Shown here piece after piece: positions 1,620-23,809 of a DNA stretch of 23,809 nucleotides (position 1 is its first letter; every line of letters begins with the position of its first letter). This DNA comes from a virus: positions 1 to 23,809 of the IMG/VR virus record IMGVR_UViG_3300029309_003906; one strand, given 5' to 3'. Both the position numbers and the translations under genes were made by a program. The notes below the pieces were generated by a model, which saw nothing but the letters and a program-made list of their open reading frames with translations, was not told the DNA's origin and made no database searches.

Positions 1620-2894
1620 TTGACACCTAATGAGGCAAACGCTCGGCAAGCAGAGCTTGGCTTGCTAGGAGCCCTTATGCTGGCAACGAAGATCGACCCA
1701 GCAATTACCGAAGAACTAACACGCGACGATTTTGCAGACGCAAGACACGCCGCAATATGGCAAGCGATCTGCCAAGAGGTGCGCAACGGTGGCGAAGATG
1801 CGCCCAGCCTGGTCGTCGTCGATTGGCTGCGACAAGCCGGCGATTTAGAGCTAGCCGGCGGCTTAGAATACGTCGACAGTTTTAACAGTCACACGATCCA
1901 ACGCAATTACGGCAGCGCCGCACAGTGTGCGCACGCTGTCAAACAATGCGCCAGGCTGCGCAGAATCGCCGCTAACGCAAAAGCAACGGCAGACGCTGCC
2001 GAAGGTTACGCCGAAGGGTCAACGGCTGCCCTAATCGAACTGCAGCAATCGCTAGCAGCGCTGACCAACGACACAAAGAGCGAAACCGTCAACGCCTGGC
2101 ACGCTTTGACCTATGATTTAGAGCTAACGTTTCGCCCTGGCGTGCGCACAGCAACGCCGCTCGATCAATATATGCCGCTTTCGCCTGGTCGCATGTTTGT
2201 TTTAGGCGGTCGACCCGGTCACGGCAAAACGACGTTGACGCTGCAGATTGCTTTGTCATTGCTCAAGGCAAACCCTGACGCGCAGACGTTGGTTGCTAGC
2301 TGCGAAATGACAGAGCCGGAACTAAGCCTAAAAGCGCTGTGCTGCTTAGAGGGTCGCAACTTTATCGATCAGGTGCGTAACGATAAACAGCAAGGACTGA
2401 TTGCCGTTGCGCACGCTGTGCAAGAGCACGCCGACACGTTGCAGCGGTTGCACCTAAAACCTACGCGCAGCATGGACGCAATTATCGCAGAGGCGCACGC
2501 TTTACACCGAACGCAACCGCTGACTTGCGTAGTCGTTGACTACCTTAGCGCTATGGACGCGCCAGGCGGTGGCAATCACGACACGCGAACGCGTGAAGTT
2601 GGCGCAGTGTCTCGATCGTGCAAAGCGCTGGCGCAAGCCTTAGACTGCATTGTTTTGGCAGCGTCACAATTAAACCGTGGCGCTAAGGACAGCAGCAAGC
2701 CCACGCTTAAATCGTTGCGTGACAGCGGCGAAGTCGAGCAAGACAGCGACGGCGTCGCATTGTTGCACCGACCAGATCACGACGACGACGAGGCAACGGC
2801 GCAATTGCTGATTGCTAAAAACCGCTGGGGCGAGTTAGCAACGATCAGCCTAGAACCTGACCTAGCAAATCACCGTTTTCAATGGGGCTTTTAA
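1620..2894 (+). CDS. DnaB-like replicative helicase
   Basis: The protein has 424 residues, slightly short for DnaB. The N-terminal part (about 1-110) matches the DnaB N-terminal helical domain in style: EANARQAELGLLGALML is the usual opening, with DFADARHAAIWQAI after it. After a linker comes a RecA-like domain with Walker A GGRPGHGKTTLT (about 196-207), the motif ASCEMTEPEL downstream, Walker B CVVVDYLSAM (about 302-311), ASQLNRGA, and a DSGEVEQDSDGVALLHRP region typical of DnaB motif H4. It should unwind DNA as a hexameric ring at the fork. The start is TTG at 1620, chosen because GAGAGG at 1608-1613 sits six bases upstream and the domain begins immediately; no ATG fits. The stop lies two bases before the preferred start of the next gene. 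Confidence 0.92.
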   Translation: MTPNEANARQAELGLLGALMLATKIDPAITEELTRDDFADARHAAIWQAICQEVRNGGEDAPSLVVVDWLRQAGDLELAGGLEYVDSFNSHTIQRNYGSAAQCAHAVKQCARLRRIAANAKATADAAEGYAEGSTAALIELQQSLAALTNDTKSETVNAWHALTYDLELTFRPGVRTATPLDQYMPLSPGRMFVLGGRPGHGKTTLTLQIALSLLKANPDAQTLVASCEMTEPELSLKALCCLEGRNFIDQVRNDKQQGLIAVAHAVQEHADTLQRLHLKPTRSMDAIIAEAHALHRTQPLTCVVVDYLSAMDAPGGGNHDTRTREVGAVSRSCKALAQALDCIVLAASQLNRGAKDSSKPTLKSLRDSGEVEQDSDGVALLHRPDHDDDEATAQLLIAKNRWGELATISLEPDLANHRFQWGF

Positions 2895-2896
2895 TC

Positions 2897-3832
2897 ATGG
2901 GCGTTATGGACAGAATTGCTGACGGCGCACGGGATTGGTCAGACATTATTGAGGATCGCCCGCTTTTGGTATCGGTTAGCGGTGGCAAAGACAGCACGGC
3001 AATGGCGCTATGGCTTATTGACCAAGGACTAAAAGATCGCTGTTATTGGGTTTTTGCAGATACAGGTTGGGAACACCCGGCAGTCTACGAGTACTTAACA
3101 TATTTAGAAGGCGTAATTGGACCAATACACCGAGCAACAAACAGCAAATACCCTGGTGGCTTTGCCGATCTAGTGCGTAAAAAAGGCATGTTCCCAAGCC
3201 GTAAATTTAGGTTTTGTACTGACCAACTGAAGGTCACGCCGATCCGTGAATATGCAGCACAGCTTGCCGAGGAGTTAGGCGATAACCTTATTAGTTGCGT
3301 TGGGATACGCGCAGCAGAAAGTCGCAGCCGTGCTGCGCTCGACATGTGGGATAGTGGCGGACCTATCAAGCTGGACACCTGGCGACCGATTATTGAATGG
3401 GGCGTTGAAGACGTGATTGAATACCACAACAAGCACAACGTCGTGCCGTGCACGCTGTACTTGCGCGACAAGCATCCGTCAGAACGTGTTGGCTGCTATC
3501 CGTGCATTATGAGCCGCAAGGCAGAAATACAAGCAGTCGCAGTGCATGATCAATGGCGCGTCGATGAAATAAGACAGCTAGAAGCTGACGCGCAAGAAAA
3601 GTATATTGAGCGCAACCAAGATTGGGAAGAACGCAACCTGCAGTTGCCAACGATGTTTCAAGGCAGACAGCAAGACGAAAACGGCAAGCGGTTAATGACA
3701 CCGATCGATAAGGTTGTTGAATGGTCGAAGACTTCTAGAGGTGGCAAGCAATTGCAATTGATCGAGACAGGACAGCCAGGCTGTCGTATGTGGGGATTGT
3801 GCGACATGGGGACAAACAACAATGATGTATGA
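2897..3832 (+). CDS. PAPS reductase / DndC-like PP-loop protein
   Basis: This is an adenine-nucleotide alpha-hydrolase (PP-loop) protein of the CysH/DndC superfamily. The PP-loop SGGKDST is at about residues 28-34, followed by WVFADTGWEHP, the usual second strand. FCTDQLKV (one Cys) and GCYPCIM (CxxC), with a further Cys in VVPCTLY, resemble the cysteine set that holds an iron-sulfur cluster in DndC and assimilatory reductases; two more Cys lie near the C terminus (PGCRMWGLCDMG). Known relatives reduce PAPS or activate sulfur for DNA phosphorothioation; which applies here cannot be told. No dndB, dndD or dndE partner is visible. Three in-frame ATGs exist (2882, 2897, 2906). I prefer 2897 because GGGG lies nine bases upstream and it falls just after the helicase stop. 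The gene is part of the replication operon. Confidence 0.85.
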   Translation: MGVMDRIADGARDWSDIIEDRPLLVSVSGGKDSTAMALWLIDQGLKDRCYWVFADTGWEHPAVYEYLTYLEGVIGPIHRATNSKYPGGFADLVRKKGMFPSRKFRFCTDQLKVTPIREYAAQLAEELGDNLISCVGIRAAESRSRAALDMWDSGGPIKLDTWRPIIEWGVEDVIEYHNKHNVVPCTLYLRDKHPSERVGCYPCIMSRKAEIQAVAVHDQWRVDEIRQLEADAQEKYIERNQDWEERNLQLPTMFQGRQQDENGKRLMTPIDKVVEWSKTSRGGKQLQLIETGQPGCRMWGLCDMGTNNNDV

Positions 3833-5144: not shown

Positions 5145-5906
5145 CTATGGATGCGCCGGCTTGCCGGCATAATAATCTCTAAGTATTTCATCTTGACTAA
5201 GTACGCGATCATAGACACGAAAAGTGTCAAAGTACCCACTCCACATGCTAAAGTTTGCTGCACCTAGACGATCGCCTTCACCGCTTGGTGTGCTCCATTG
5301 TTGATTTAGACCTACGGTAACGCTTTTATACTGCACACCGTTTACATAAGATCTTAGTGTGCCGGGGTCACCCGGTTGCCAAGTAAGAGCATGCAGATAC
5401 CATATATCATCGGAGTTAGTAGGGAACACATCTAAAACGAATGCGTTTCCGGTATTGTTAAATACATCTAAATCTAATGGTCCAAGCCCTGTATTTAAAT
5501 TTCGCAAAGACCAACCTTTGGTATTTGTGCGACCACGAGTGGACACATAACACACATCTCCTGCAGGCGGAGGGTCGGAAGAATCTCTAGCAATCCACGC
5601 AGTAAAGGTCCATGGCACATCGTGGCGCTGCAAAGTTGTTGGATTTGTTGTGTCAATAAACTGTACGACCTGACCCGAGCCAGGGTTATTCGAAACACCA
5701 TCCCAAAACCAAGGGCCTGGTGGCGTATCGCCTAAAACAATATTTACGTTGTCAGGCCTTCCAAACTTGCCGCCTGTCCAATTACCGTGATTTTGATTAG
5801 GGCTAATATCGTACCATTTAGCGTCCGACGCGTCTCCTGTGTCACGTTCGAAACGCGCTGTAGCGTCGCCGGTTGCGCTCGGTTGTTTTATGCGTTGCTT
5901 TCTCAT
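5145..5906 (-). CDS. LamG/concanavalin-like domain protein, probable tail-tip adhesin
   Basis: The protein has 253 residues. From about residue 30 on it reads as a LamG/concanavalin A-like jellyroll: WYDISPNQNHGNWTGGKFG, then VPWTFTAWIARDS, the central DIWYLHALTWQPGDPGTLR, YVNGVQYKS, and the closing signature YFDTFRVYDRVLSQDEIL. Such domains commonly bind glycans on phage tail tips. The first ~25 residues (RKQRIKQPSATGDATARFER) are polar and may attach it to the tail. The bulk of the gene is markedly richer in A and T than its neighbours (by eye, 21-23 of 60 GC on several lines against about 41 of 60 in the next gene), which suggests import of the domain. AAGGTGA before the ATG is a good ribosome binding site. 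Binding specificity is unknown. Confidence 0.75.
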   Translation of the reverse strand: MRKQRIKQPSATGDATARFERDTGDASDAKWYDISPNQNHGNWTGGKFGRPDNVNIVLGDTPPGPWFWDGVSNNPGSGQVVQFIDTTNPTTLQRHDVPWTFTAWIARDSSDPPPAGDVCYVSTRGRTNTKGWSLRNLNTGLGPLDLDVFNNTGNAFVLDVFPTNSDDIWYLHALTWQPGDPGTLRSYVNGVQYKSVTVGLNQQWSTPSGEGDRLGAANFSMWSGYFDTFRVYDRVLSQDEILRDYYAGKPAHP

Positions 5907-10852: not shown

Positions 10853-12460
10853 TTAAGCCCCCATTACTCGGCGATGCCTCGCCATCTTTAAACCGCTGTT
10901 TAAAACGTTACTAACGCCACGGCGATCGTAAGCGTCGCCATTAAAGTTGATTACCGTCGTGCCGCCTTCGCTGCTGCCTGCTGTCGATGCTGCACGGCTT
11001 TGCCTGGTATCGGTCGGCGTGCTGCTTGGCGTTGCTGCTGGCTGCCCTGCTCGACTAACCGCACCGCTTGCTGCGCCCATAGCCAGACCGCTGGCAATCA
11101 TCGCTGCGCCTGTGCCTGCCATTACAGGGTTAGCTGTAGCGACACCTTCGAAGGCGTGCAGCGTACCACGCGCAACTAACTCTTGCCCGGTGCTAGCCAG
11201 CACAGCTTCAAGCAGCTTTGACGCGTTTAGCTCGCCAGCTTTGGCTTGCTCGAACAATGCACCGGTCACCGTGTTGGCTGCTGCCATTGCCATATGCGTG
11301 CGCTCTTCGGCTAACTTTTTGGCAAAAGCGGCTTCTTGCAAAGCTAACTGTCGGCGCTTTTCGTGCGCAGCCAAATCAATTACAGCCTGCTTTTTAAAAG
11401 CCTCAAAGCGTATTTGGCGCTCTGCCTCTGCTGTCTGCTGCGCTGTTTGCAGGTTAAAAGCTGCGTTATCTTTGCGCACCTGCCGCTCATGTGCAGCATT
11501 GTCGAACACGTCTTTCTTTCGCTTGTCACTAACCGCTGTCGATTGCTTGGCTGCCTCGGTGCTAGCGGCTTGCATAGCCTCAGCGGCTTTTTGTGTCGTG
11601 CCTTTTGTGGCTTCGACAAAGCTGGTAACTGCTGACTCGCCAGACAACTTAAGGTCGTTTAAGTAGAATGCTTGTGCCTCTTTAGCCTCAGCCTGTGCAA
11701 AGCGCAGGCGGTTGCCAAAACCAGCAAGCATACGGTTTTGTGACGCCAGCGCTGCAGCCTCTTCTCGTAGTTGCCGCTCGATTCTGAAGATTTCAGATGC
11801 CTTATTAGCTGATCGCAATTCTGAATTAAGATCAGCAATTCGATCTTCAATCTGACGCTTGCGCAGTTGTTGGTTTAGCCGGTCCTGCTCGACAGCGCGC
11901 ACTTTTGCAAGAGCTACTTGCGCCGCTTCTTTAGCTTGCAAAGCTGCAATGCTAATGCCTGCGTCTACCGCTGCTTTTCCTAAATCTTCGAGCGCTTTCG
12001 CGTGCTCTTTTTCTGCTTTTGCCGCTTCTTCAGCTGCTGCCGCTTCGCTTTGCATTGCCGTTGCAATCATCGAGATACCAGCAACACCTGCAGCAATCGC
12101 AATGCCTACCACGCCACCAGACGCAAACGCCGCAATAGAATCACCCGCAAGCAAAAAGCCTGCGCCGATCTTATCGGCAGCCGTGGCGCCCTCATTGCCA
12201 AACTCGATAACAGCCATCTGCGCACGCGCGAATGCGCCCTCAGAGTCCCTTAGAGGCGTCTCCAGCTCCGTCAAACGTCCGTGCAAGCCCTCGCCTGGTC
12301 CAAACGCTTTGCCTAGCTTCTCGCCGTATCGATTGAGGTTTTTAGATTCACGGTCGACGCTGTCGCCTAAATCACCAAGCGAGTCTTTAGCTTGCTTTAC
12401 GCCACGATCAACACCGCTAGCGTCTGCCTCGATGCCTAAGCGTAGTGTATCATCTGCCAT
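10853..12460 (-). CDS. tail tape measure protein
   Basis: The protein has 535 residues. It begins DDTLRLGIEADASGVDRGVK, a typical tape-measure opening, followed by long charged and Ala-rich helices (EKEHAKALEDLGKAAVDAGI; RQIEDRIADLNSELRSANKA; NLQTAQQTAEAERQIRFEAF). Two hydrophobic stretches lie at about residues 105-137 (SGGVVGIAIAAGVAGISMIA) and 450-475 (GTGAAMIASGLAMGAASGAV), as in proteins that enter the membrane during DNA injection. It sets tail length and occupies the tube lumen. With the usual ~1.5 angstrom per residue, 535 residues suggest a short siphovirus tail of about 80 nm (rule of thumb, inference). The ATG has GGAAAGG a few bases upstream and overlaps the chaperone frame by 11 bases. 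Order after tube and chaperone genes supports the call. Confidence 0.88.
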   Translation of the reverse strand: MADDTLRLGIEADASGVDRGVKQAKDSLGDLGDSVDRESKNLNRYGEKLGKAFGPGEGLHGRLTELETPLRDSEGAFARAQMAVIEFGNEGATAADKIGAGFLLAGDSIAAFASGGVVGIAIAAGVAGISMIATAMQSEAAAAEEAAKAEKEHAKALEDLGKAAVDAGISIAALQAKEAAQVALAKVRAVEQDRLNQQLRKRQIEDRIADLNSELRSANKASEIFRIERQLREEAAALASQNRMLAGFGNRLRFAQAEAKEAQAFYLNDLKLSGESAVTSFVEATKGTTQKAAEAMQAASTEAAKQSTAVSDKRKKDVFDNAAHERQVRKDNAAFNLQTAQQTAEAERQIRFEAFKKQAVIDLAAHEKRRQLALQEAAFAKKLAEERTHMAMAAANTVTGALFEQAKAGELNASKLLEAVLASTGQELVARGTLHAFEGVATANPVMAGTGAAMIASGLAMGAASGAVSRAGQPAATPSSTPTDTRQSRAASTAGSSEGGTTVINFNGDAYDRRGVSNVLNSGLKMARHRRVMGA

Positions 12461-12731
12461 GGCTTAGCCTTTCCATCTCTTGCCGATGCTGCGCAGCACG
12501 TGCCGCCATCTGTCCGCTTACATACGCTTCGACACGATCGAGTAAAATAGGGTTTGCCGTAGCAATCGACGCACCAAAGCGCCCCTCGGTATGCCAAGCC
12601 CAGCGGCGCGCCTGTGACACTGCCAAGCGCTGCGACAACGACCCTGGGCAGCCCGTCCAAGGTTTGCCGCCGATCGTCAAAGGCGGTGCAGGTTGCTTTG
12701 CTTCGAACCCTGGCAAGGTGCAGCCCTTCAA
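12450..12731 (-). CDS. tail assembly chaperone, second frame (possible frameshift product)
   Basis: This frame lies between the first chaperone frame and the tape measure, the place of the GT-type extension in many phages. As a free ORF it would start at TTG (12731) with 93 residues. The frame, however, stays open upstream to 12824, overlapping the end of the first chaperone frame. The upstream part encodes WASQYDVFNCANCPEQARQL, so a CxxC plus a third Cys just after it seems to belong to the protein. That favours entry by frameshifting rather than TTG initiation; the only support for the latter is a weak AGCAGG eight bases upstream. The C-terminal part (NPILLDRVEAYVSGQMAARA) is helical and basic. 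It probably contacts the tape measure during tail assembly. Confidence is good that the frame is coding, moderate on the mechanism. Confidence 0.65.
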   Translation of the reverse strand: MKGCTLPGFEAKQPAPPLTIGGKPWTGCPGSLSQRLAVSQARRWAWHTEGRFGASIATANPILLDRVEAYVSGQMAARAAQHRQEMERLSHGR

Positions 12732-12780
12732 TTGTCGCGCCTGCTCTGGGCAGTTAGCGCAGTTAAAAACGTCGTACTGG

Positions 12781-13233
12781 CTAGCCCAGCCCGCTGCGAA
12801 ACAGTGCTCGCGCTTGATCGGAGTCTACTAGGTGCGCTTGCACAATTGCGCTGTAAGCCTCCCAGAATACACCATCAAGCGCGAGCGCCTCCAAATCATC
12901 AGCGTGCAACGCATCACCCTCTAACCGTAACAGCTCGCGCCCCTCGATTTCTCGAAGACTGAAACCGACCACCTCACCAGCAACTTGCAAAATACCCTCT
13001 TTAAACTTGCCAAGCTTTGCAGCGTCAGCAACAGGGTCTTCGCTGGTGCCATCTTCTAGCCTGCTCTCAATCGCAGCTAAACCTTTGCGCAGCGACGTAT
13101 CGCGCCCTAAAATCGACGACCAGCGACCGGCAGGAATAAACGCCAAGCGCGCACGCTTGCCGCTTTCTAGTTCAAGCCAGTCAGTCAACTCGTCGGCTGT
13201 TTCTGGCGTAATGTTGTCTAGCGCTTCGCTCAT
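12781..13233 (-). CDS. tail assembly chaperone, first frame
   Basis: The protein has 150 residues and lies between the tail tube and tape measure genes. It opens MSEALDNITPETADELTDWL, then LESGKRARLAFIPAGRWSSI, and continues as an acidic helical protein (KFKEGILQVAGEVVGFSLRE; LHADDLEALALDGVFWEAYS), ending ALFRSGLG. Size, acidity and position match the G-type tail chaperone that, with its frameshifted longer form, holds the tape measure while the tube polymerises. It overlaps the tube gene by four bases (ATGA). A second frame begins to be open 44 bases before its stop codon, which is the geometry expected for a programmed shift. The family is not recognised by a motif; the call rests mainly on order. 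Confidence 0.65.
   Translation of the reverse strand: MSEALDNITPETADELTDWLELESGKRARLAFIPAGRWSSILGRDTSLRKGLAAIESRLEDGTSEDPVADAAKLGKFKEGILQVAGEVVGFSLREIEGRELLRLEGDALHADDLEALALDGVFWEAYSAIVQAHLVDSDQARALFRSGLG
12796..12804 (-). other. candidate +1 ribosomal frameshift site
   Basis: On the - strand the first chaperone frame reads CTG TTT CGC here, seven codons before its TAG stop (counting CTG). Slipping one base forward turns TTT into TTC, read by the same Phe tRNA, and the ribosome then enters the second frame (GCA GCG GGC TGG and on). The second frame is closed further upstream by two TAG codons (12825-12830), so the shift must occur in the 44 bases between 12824 and 12781. The -1 frame instead meets TGA at about 12732, so a lambda-type -1 shift cannot give the long product. 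A -2 shift is formally equivalent but no good -2 slippery run is seen. Confidence 0.4.
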
Positions 13234-14585
13234 AACAAATGAATGCGCGCCGTTGCTGTGCCGTGCGTTGGTCGGTAACCTCGCCCGCTCATTTCAAGCG
13301 TAGCCAGACCGCCTTCTTCGCCTATCGTTGTATTGCACTGTGCCGCTGGGATCTCAATCACAACCGTATTGCCTGGCGTATCGCCAAACTGCATAAGCAC
13401 AGCAAAGACTTGATTATTCTGAAACGATAACGCCGCACCGTCGCCAAAGGTTTGCGAGCCGCTAGCCAACAGCTCGGCAGTTGTTCCGTCATGGTAAAGA
13501 CGCATTTCGGTCGTGCAGTTGTTCTGCACAGCAACAAAACCCTGCCGCCCGTTGGTGCCGGTTGCTGCCGTGCGTGGCTGCACGTCGGTCGCCGTGTCAA
13601 AGCCTGCGCTGATCGCAGTGGCTACGGCAACGCCTGTTGTAGCGCCAGGCGTAAAGTTGCCAGAGCCATCGACGCCCCAACAATCGTCAGCGCAGATAAG
13701 CACACGAGCGCCACGGGTTGAAACCGGACCCAGATTAGGCGCAGTAAATGTGCCAAACGTTGGCGCCCCTGCTGCATTTTGGTCTGCCGTCCATGTTTGT
13801 GCTTGTGCTGAATAGGTCGCCAAAAGCAAGCCGTCAGCGTCGCTAAACGCAACCGAGCCCATGCAGCCTTGAAACAAGCGGTCAATACCTGCATCTGCTA
13901 GCCTGCCGTGCACCGTAATGTGCGCACGCTCGCCTGCAGTCTGGTCGATAGGATAGGTGCGCATCCCGTAAATGTCGTCGCCATTTTGCGGCGCATCGCT
14001 GAATCCGCCGGTCATATTTACAGCGCTGTCGCCTGCCAGTCTGATGGTGTCGGCACCGTCTGCCTCAATCGCAACAACTGGCGCAGTCTCCATTTTTCCT
14101 GATGTAGGATTAACCCAACCGACAACGTCGCCAATAGCGTAACCAACAATGCCGACACGCCCAACGCCAAACTGCAAAACCCAGCGCGTAGAGCCTGCAA
14201 TAACGTCTTCGCCTTGGATGTTTCGCTTCGTGCCGCCGGTGGCTTGCTCGATCAGCATATCGTATTGGGGCGCAGCCGCAGATGCGTTGACAGCGTTAGC
14301 AGCGCCGCCGCTAAGATCAAGCCCCCGCATATAGAACGCAAGCGACGGGCTGGCGTCTTTGTTGCCGCTGACACCTGCCGGCGTCTCGCCGTCACCACGC
14401 TGACCGGTAATCGCGATCTGCTCACGCGTAAACTCCATGGTCGTCGCGCTAGTAATTTCAAGGTCAATAAAACCTGGCGGCACCATATCAGCAGCAGCAT
14501 ACTTCTCAGATAAATCCCAAGCCGTAGAGCCTACAACTGCGTTAATTTTGCCGATCTGCACGCGATTAATTCGCTTCAGTGTCAT
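13230..14585 (-). CDS. major tail tube protein
   Basis: The protein has 451 residues, large for a tube protein, and begins LKRINRVQIGKINAVVGSTA, followed by LEITSATTMEFTREQIAITG. It is beta-rich with many Gly, Thr and Ala residues and few charged helices. There are long repeats of short strands, for example RWVLQFGVGRVGIVGYAIGD, then GWVNPTSGKMETAPVVAIEA, and NCTTEMRLYHDGTTAELLAS. It lies between the tail terminator candidate and the chaperone frames, where the tube protein is encoded. The extra length beyond the ~200 residues of a simple tube protein suggests one or more added surface domains, possibly the C-terminal half. The ATG follows the previous gene by one base. An alternative is a tube plus decoration fusion; the structural role is fairly secure. 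Confidence 0.7.
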   Translation of the reverse strand: MTLKRINRVQIGKINAVVGSTAWDLSEKYAAADMVPPGFIDLEITSATTMEFTREQIAITGQRGDGETPAGVSGNKDASPSLAFYMRGLDLSGGAANAVNASAAAPQYDMLIEQATGGTKRNIQGEDVIAGSTRWVLQFGVGRVGIVGYAIGDVVGWVNPTSGKMETAPVVAIEADGADTIRLAGDSAVNMTGGFSDAPQNGDDIYGMRTYPIDQTAGERAHITVHGRLADAGIDRLFQGCMGSVAFSDADGLLLATYSAQAQTWTADQNAAGAPTFGTFTAPNLGPVSTRGARVLICADDCWGVDGSGNFTPGATTGVAVATAISAGFDTATDVQPRTAATGTNGRQGFVAVQNNCTTEMRLYHDGTTAELLASGSQTFGDGAALSFQNNQVFAVLMQFGDTPGNTVVIEIPAAQCNTTIGEEGGLATLEMSGRGYRPTHGTATARIHLL

Positions 14586-23341: not shown

Positions 23342-23809
23342 CTAGCCCTTGACGATCTTAGCCCACGCCTTGCGCAGCCTGGTATGATAGCCGTGCTTTG
23401 CATAGGCTGGCCCGTTGTACAGTCGAGCTAAGCCTGTCCAGTCGATCGGCGTTTGGTTTGCGGCGTAGCGTGCTCTTGGGTTCGCTGCAAACCATTGCGC
23501 AACCAGCTTATTGCTAACGCTCTCCGGTTCAGCGTCAAACGCCTCGACGGCTGCGATCGGGTCGCCGTTGTACAAGTCAAGCAGATGCGATCCGAGCACC
23601 TGAAATAAGCCCCAGCTCGTCGACTTTATCGCTGCTTCTGCGTCTAGGCTTGCGGCATGATCGAAGGCGGCTCTATTCGTCTCGCTCGGTTCAGTGCTCC
23701 AAACGTATTTAGCCCTTGTGTAAGGCACTTTGCTGCGCAAGTCTGGCGCTAAGCGCAGAAAAATGTGCGGCTCGAAGCGTACAGCGGCAGGCTTGCCGTT
23801 ACTTTCGAC
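23342..23809 (-). CDS. endolysin, N-acetylmuramidase (DUF3380-like), 5' end outside window
   Basis: The frame is open to the window edge, so the TTG at 23740 is not the likely start. The first visible residues, VESNGKPAAVRFEPHIFLRL, match the motif around the catalytic Glu (second codon in the window) of the N-acetylmuramidase family PF11860. More of the family follows: SLDAEAAIKSTSWGLFQVLG, then WFAANP and WTGLARLYNGPAYAKHGYHT, and RLRKAWAKIVKG at the end. The enzyme cuts the glycan strands of peptidoglycan at lysis. The visible part is 155 residues; a cell-wall-binding domain could precede it. It is the first gene seen of the leftward operon and sits upstream of a holin-like gene. Lysis genes thus precede the packaging genes here. 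Confidence 0.88.
   Translation of the reverse strand, partial: VESNGKPAAVRFEPHIFLRLAPDLRSKVPYTRAKYVWSTEPSETNRAAFDHAASLDAEAAIKSTSWGLFQVLGSHLLDLYNGDPIAAVEAFDAEPESVSNKLVAQWFAANPRARYAANQTPIDWTGLARLYNGPAYAKHGYHTRLRKAWAKIVKG

Follow-up and report, generated by a model that had tools for sequence, protein, structure and literature searches.

Two overlapping frames ahead of the tape measure gene

The window analyzed here is the whole stretch of 23,809 nucleotides in the IMG/VR virus record IMGVR_UViG_3300029309_003906 (positions 1 to 23,809), and the target locus lies on its minus strand. The features at and around the locus are as follows.

10853..12460, minus strand: tape measure protein, 535 aa, assigned by position and homologue matches; its first 11 nt overlap the end of frame 2
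12450..12797, minus strand: +1-frame extension, putative T-like part, 115 aa plus stop, with a CxxC...C...C pattern
12781..12783, minus strand: frame-1 stop codon TAG, whose position is not conserved among relatives
12781..12824, minus strand: 44-nt stretch in which both frames are open; a TAG at 12827-12825 closes frame 2 upstream
12781..13233, minus strand: frame 1, putative G-like tail assembly chaperone, 150 aa by standard decoding, from ATG at 13233 to TAG at 12783-12781
12796..12801, minus strand: candidate shift site TTT_CGC, with TTT (12801-12799) as the P-site codon, CGC (12798-12796) as the A-site codon and +1 re-pairing on TTC (12800-12798)
13230..14585, minus strand: probable tail tube protein, 451 aa, the upstream neighbor, assigned by position only

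We confirmed that frame 1 stops at 12781, as an earlier sequence-only reading of this DNA had proposed. Frame 2, in the +1 register, has no stop between 12824 and a TGA at 12452-12450. That reading had described it as lacking an ATG or GTG start, and this was borne out for its early part: the first possible start, and the earliest of any ATG, GTG or TTG, is a TTG at 12731, with in-frame GTG and ATG codons far downstream. If TTTC is read as a single Phe step, the two frames join into an uninterrupted 260-aa fusion (...QARALF|AAGWASQYDVFNCANCPE...). The -1 frame is blocked, also as described, by a TGA that had been placed near 12732 and lies exactly at 12730-12728. Alignment of the window with its relatives identified several invariant stretches and residues in frame 2 (FxAGWASQ, C, C, KGCTLPG and GCPGSL). 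The invariant cysteines are C22 and C25 (the CxxC), C35 and a fourth, C59, in keeping with the suggestion that the CxxC and a third Cys belong to the protein. Judged by its sequence, frame 2 has no usable start and would add 115 aa to frame 1, reaching as far as the start of the tape measure gene.

We also examined the identity of the pair. Tape measure homologues in two relatives matched phrog_1538, annotated as 'tail length tape measure protein' (E 4.2e-5 for L023 and 8e-3 for L007). No family match was found for the probable tail tube protein (13230..14585), which is strongly conserved in the relatives, and the window also holds terminase, minor head protein and muramidase genes. Neither frame matched at threshold in Pfam, PHROGs or NCBIfam; phrog_722, at E 0.11, was not counted as evidence of a family match. 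A profile search with frame 1 against PDB sequences returned nothing. For structure comparison the two frames were folded separately, and the AlphaFold model of frame 1 reached a pLDDT of 83, while that of frame 2 was unusable (pLDDT 46). The best BFVD match of the frame-1 model was an unnamed viral protein with 49% identity, and many annotated tail assembly chaperones were found among its next 50 BFVD matches, albeit weak ones (E 0.1-3). Frame 1 aligned with YqbN (3klu), which we take to be a tail-chaperone relative, at Z 5.2 over 90 aligned residues (rmsd 4.2), a result tied with those for unrelated helical chains. VIA-align of the same model gave only middling matches, to common helical arrangements. 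It seems likely that the pair is a tail chaperone pair, a conclusion drawn from position and expression pattern rather than from homology. The pair geometry claimed earlier stood, with the overlap, the +1 relation and the lack of a conserved start found in 11/11 sequences; the chaperone identity held less firmly, drawing on position and weak structural matches.

Elsewhere in the window, a gene of the PAPS reductase family (2882-3832, plus strand; PF01507, E 1.4e-19) lies beside a DnaB-like helicase and a RuvC-like gene and is a possible auxiliary sulfur gene. Among the tail genes, a protein with a concanavalin-like (Laminin_G_3) domain is encoded at 5145-5906 on the minus strand and possibly functions in receptor binding.

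Conservation of the junction and the switch in coding constraint

Scans of IMG/VR yielded ten relatives (L001-L009 and L023), and these contigs together with the window form a set of 11 sequences that represents one virus group with shared ancestry. Identity to the window among the relatives goes down to 45% in frame 1 and to 54% in frame 2. The +1 relation is kept in 11/11, and the nucleotide alignment is free of gaps around the junction. In L007 (4039-4050) and L023 (3039-3050), the TAG is lost and frame 1 continues for three more codons, reaching a TGA 9 nt further on. A second scan employed the motif-free DNA pattern AGWASQ[YF], which leaves out TTTCG and is hence blind to the slip motif; it recovered the same ten relatives, with TTTCG directly upstream in each, and its remaining hits were unrelated proteins. 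A wider scan by the probable tail tube protein found further contigs, but the new ones end before the junction. Frames 1 and 2 had no match in the INPHARED cultured phage records, and frame 2 had none in GTDB bacterial and archaeal genomes.

The CTG TTT CGC that had been suggested to allow slippage is indeed at 12804-12796, with TTT at 12801-12799. Conservation of TTTC at the junction among related phages had been set beforehand as a check, and it was found in 11/11. The invariant stretch is TTTCG, in the context CTG, CTA, CTT, TTG or ATG followed by TTT and then CGC or CGT, so that every sequence has a zero-frame TTT and a CGN codon where the +1 frame takes over. When 16 frame-1 codons (-24 to +21) were scanned, TTT was the sole codon with full +1 tRNA re-pairing in all 11, and none re-paired fully after a -2 shift in all 11. 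The base preceding TTT varies freely (G, A or T). TTT is the common Phe codon in the window (72%) and therefore is not remarkable by itself. Likewise, among the Arg codons of the window CGC is the most frequent (24.8 per 1000), and a pause at a rare A-site codon is therefore not supported. TTT_C occurs in the window's genes less often than simply expected (22 vs 36); this avoidance was not distinct from that of TTC_C (Fisher p 0.2-0.35) and was set aside as evidence.

RNAalifold returned a covariation term of +0.16 at the junction and no supported stimulatory structure, and no Shine-Dalgarno-like stimulator was consistent across the 11 sequences. In the four most divergent relatives (L006, L007, L008 and L023), an invariant Arg located 7-9 nt before TTT is coded by the uncommon AGG. 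This codon gives a weakly Shine-Dalgarno-like AGG_G just upstream of the slip in those four, while the window's clade has CGA or CGG for the same Arg and AGG_G is absent. The AGGG may be a weak stimulator or may reflect shared ancestry.

To locate the change in coding constraint, nucleotide changes were counted on a tree (Fitch) and one breakpoint was fitted without reference to the motif. The most variable codon position was the frame-1 third position upstream of TTT, with 2.55-2.87 changes per column, and the frame-2 third position downstream, with 2.35. A single frame switch outperformed no switch by 23-26 log units. The best breakpoints fell +2 and +5 nt from TTT, and those within 2 log units ran from 0 to +8, plus +11 in one fit. 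From the slip to the TAG, the residues of frame 1 drift (S/R/G, G/R/W, L/M/V), whereas frame 2 changes mostly at third positions and its residues stay. Residue conservation in frame 2 starts at the F of TTC, and the residues preceding it vary.

Routes from frame 1 into frame 2

These observations make it very probable that the locus encodes a tail assembly chaperone pair of the G/GT type whose expression relies on +1 programmed ribosomal frameshifting. From the conserved frames, the conserved site and the constraint switch we infer that slippage takes place, as well as how efficient it is and what the products do. Most ribosomes would end at the TAG, giving a protein of 150 aa. A smaller share would slip one base forward while tRNA-Phe (anticodon GAA) is on the P-site TTT and the A-site CGC is unfilled. 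By analogy with lambda G/GT, the short product would attach to the tape measure protein, and the long one would bring in tail tube subunits through its Cys-rich C-terminal part. A slip of Phe-tRNA from TTT to TTC joining the two frames, as the sequence-only reading had put forward, is the best-supported reading, given the invariant TTTCG and full re-pairing in 11/11.

Other routes into frame 2 are conceivable. The relation had originally been given as +1 or -2, and a Mu-like -2 shift would indeed enter the same frame, since the frame arithmetic is identical; its product would have the same C-terminal part and a single additional residue. Full re-pairing of tRNA-Phe after such a shift is possible in L006 and L007, which have CTT TTT, and the record of the haloarchaeal virus HRTV-27, which has TTT_CGC, labels the shift a 'putative programmed translational -2 frameshift'. 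However, in 9/11 sequences Phe-tRNA would land on TGT or TAT with a middle-base mismatch, whereas +1 re-pairing is complete throughout and leaves the base before TTT free to vary. We therefore retain +1 and consider -2 improbable. Slightly less probable still is that frame 2 is a separate gene, translated from a non-AUG start or by re-initiation after the frame-1 stop. Potential starts do exist: L004 and L009 carry a frame-2 ATG 24 nt upstream of the site, the window has TTG 12731, and ATC or CTG occurs upstream in a few relatives. Yet none of them is conserved, the residues upstream of F vary, and in L005 the region between the frame-2 stop and a point 60 nt beyond the site is devoid of ATG, GTG, TTG, ATT, ATC, ATA and CTG. 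In several relatives TTG 12731 is replaced by CTG, AGT or GCG, and frame-2 residues are already conserved from about 70 nt upstream of it; being unconserved and inside the conserved frame-2 region, this TTG is not the start. Three findings had been named in advance as speaking against frameshifting, namely a clear ATG and ribosome site for frame 2 among relatives, an overlap that is not conserved, or a peptide starting at TTG 12731. Only the two relatives mentioned have an ATG, no Shine-Dalgarno sequence was seen for either, the overlap is conserved, and TTG 12731 is not.

A +1 slip at the frame-1 stop itself, as in RF2 (CUU_UGA) or the Listeria phage tsh gene (CCC_UGA), would draw on the usual A-site stimulus for +1 shifts in bacteria, and GGC_TAG is present in 9/11 sequences. 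We nevertheless regard it as very unlikely, as GGC re-pairing at GCT is incomplete (2 of 3 at best) and the frame-2 constraint starts before the TAG. Moreover, L007 and L023 have GAG and CAG in place of the TAG, a change that is synonymous in frame 2, and a stop-driven slip is therefore excluded as a shared mechanism. Finally, an indel error can also produce two frames that fuse in some contigs, and the overlap could in principle be a sequencing or assembly frameshift within one gene. All 11 contigs show the identical +1 relation and align without gaps around the junction; these independent contigs refute the error reading, and we give it almost no credence. +1 slippage at TTT_CGC remains our preferred explanation.

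Comparison with known frameshift sites and implications

Lambda G/GT and a wider range of tail assembly chaperone frameshift pairs were reportedly treated by Xu, Hendrix and Duda in 2004; a review is given in PMC5009743. Like lambda G/GT, the present locus consists of a pair of short, overlapping frames immediately ahead of the tape measure gene, and its second frame, which lacks a start, would form a C-terminal extension of the first. It differs from lambda G/GT and Mu in that the shift would be +1, at TTT_CGC/T, and in lacking a sequence-family match to a known chaperone; lambda G/GT and most of its relatives shift -1, and Mu shifts -2 (PMC3498833, PMC5009743).

A parallel in both site and position comes from haloarchaeal viruses. 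A TTT-CGC +1 site has been proposed for the tail chaperones of the HF1 group (PMC7230728), the only viruses for which we found a UUU_CGN proposal for tail chaperones in the literature. We read the sequences of five Hafunaviridae (HF2, Serpecor1, HSTV-2, HRTV-7 and HRTV-27) and found TTT_CGC at the +1 junction of the tail chaperone pair in each. In HRTV-27 (NC_062760.1, 13063-13903), annotated as a putative -2 shift, the junction AAG_TTT_CGC_GGC permits +1 re-pairing as in HF2 and HSTV-2. The present virus resembles the HF1 group and HSTV-2 in gene position, +1 relation and site. Unlike these archaeal myoviruses, it carries an N-acetylmuramidase, and the frame-1 protein of HF2 is not detectably related to frame 1 here (hhalign probability 0.1%).

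The same class of site is used outside prokaryotic viruses. In influenza A PA-X, +1 shifting at UCC_UUU_CGU has been shown by mass spectrometry (PMC3498833), and plant amalgaviruses have UUU_CGN +1 sites (PMC5052127). As in these viruses, the site described here has UUU in the P site and CGN in the A site, allows +1 re-pairing on UUC and would need no stop codon; in contrast, those systems use eukaryotic ribosomes and involve unrelated genes, and the codon before TTT is CTG, CTA, CTT, TTG or ATG here vs UCC in PA-X. In tailed bacterial phages, +1 shifts are known from Listeria tsh (PSA, A118 and A500), PSA cps and an SPP1 tail protein (PMC5009743, PMC3498833). The present locus would share +1 frameshifting in a tailed bacterial phage with them, but those shifts act in major tail or capsid genes instead of a chaperone gene. 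In Listeria the shift occurs at CCC_UGA or CCC_UCC (PMC5009743); the A-site codon here is CGC or CGT, and L007 and L023 lack the downstream TAG at the corresponding position.

The N-acetylmuramidase gene (23342-23809, minus strand; PF11860, E 1e-20) is cut by the contig end. Since a virus that encodes such an enzyme would have a bacterial host, its presence points to bacterial hosts for this virus group. What we add to the earlier reading is that the site, as read from sequence, belongs to the named UUU_CGN class of +1 sites and is conserved across the whole virus group. By the same comparisons, the motif is common to these viruses and to the tail chaperones of archaeal viruses, and the ancestry of the proteins is not detectably so.

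In bacteria and phages, +1 sites are usually explained by a stop or a rare codon in the A site. It is about an even chance, in our estimation, that UUU_CGN is a cross-domain +1 site that works on bacterial ribosomes without a stop, a Shine-Dalgarno sequence or a conserved downstream structure, and that bacterial and archaeal tailed viruses adopted it independently for the tail-chaperone switch. No general forward frameshift motif has been identified so far (PMC10885494). A conserved UUU_CG[C/U] site in a bacterial virus, paralleled in influenza, amalgaviruses and haloarchaeal viruses, would give a simple search motif for phage annotation, in which second frames of this kind can easily escape notice or be entered as -2. 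It would further suggest that the vulnerable step is the reading of UUU by tRNA-Phe beside an A-site CGN, a form of decoding that is widely conserved.
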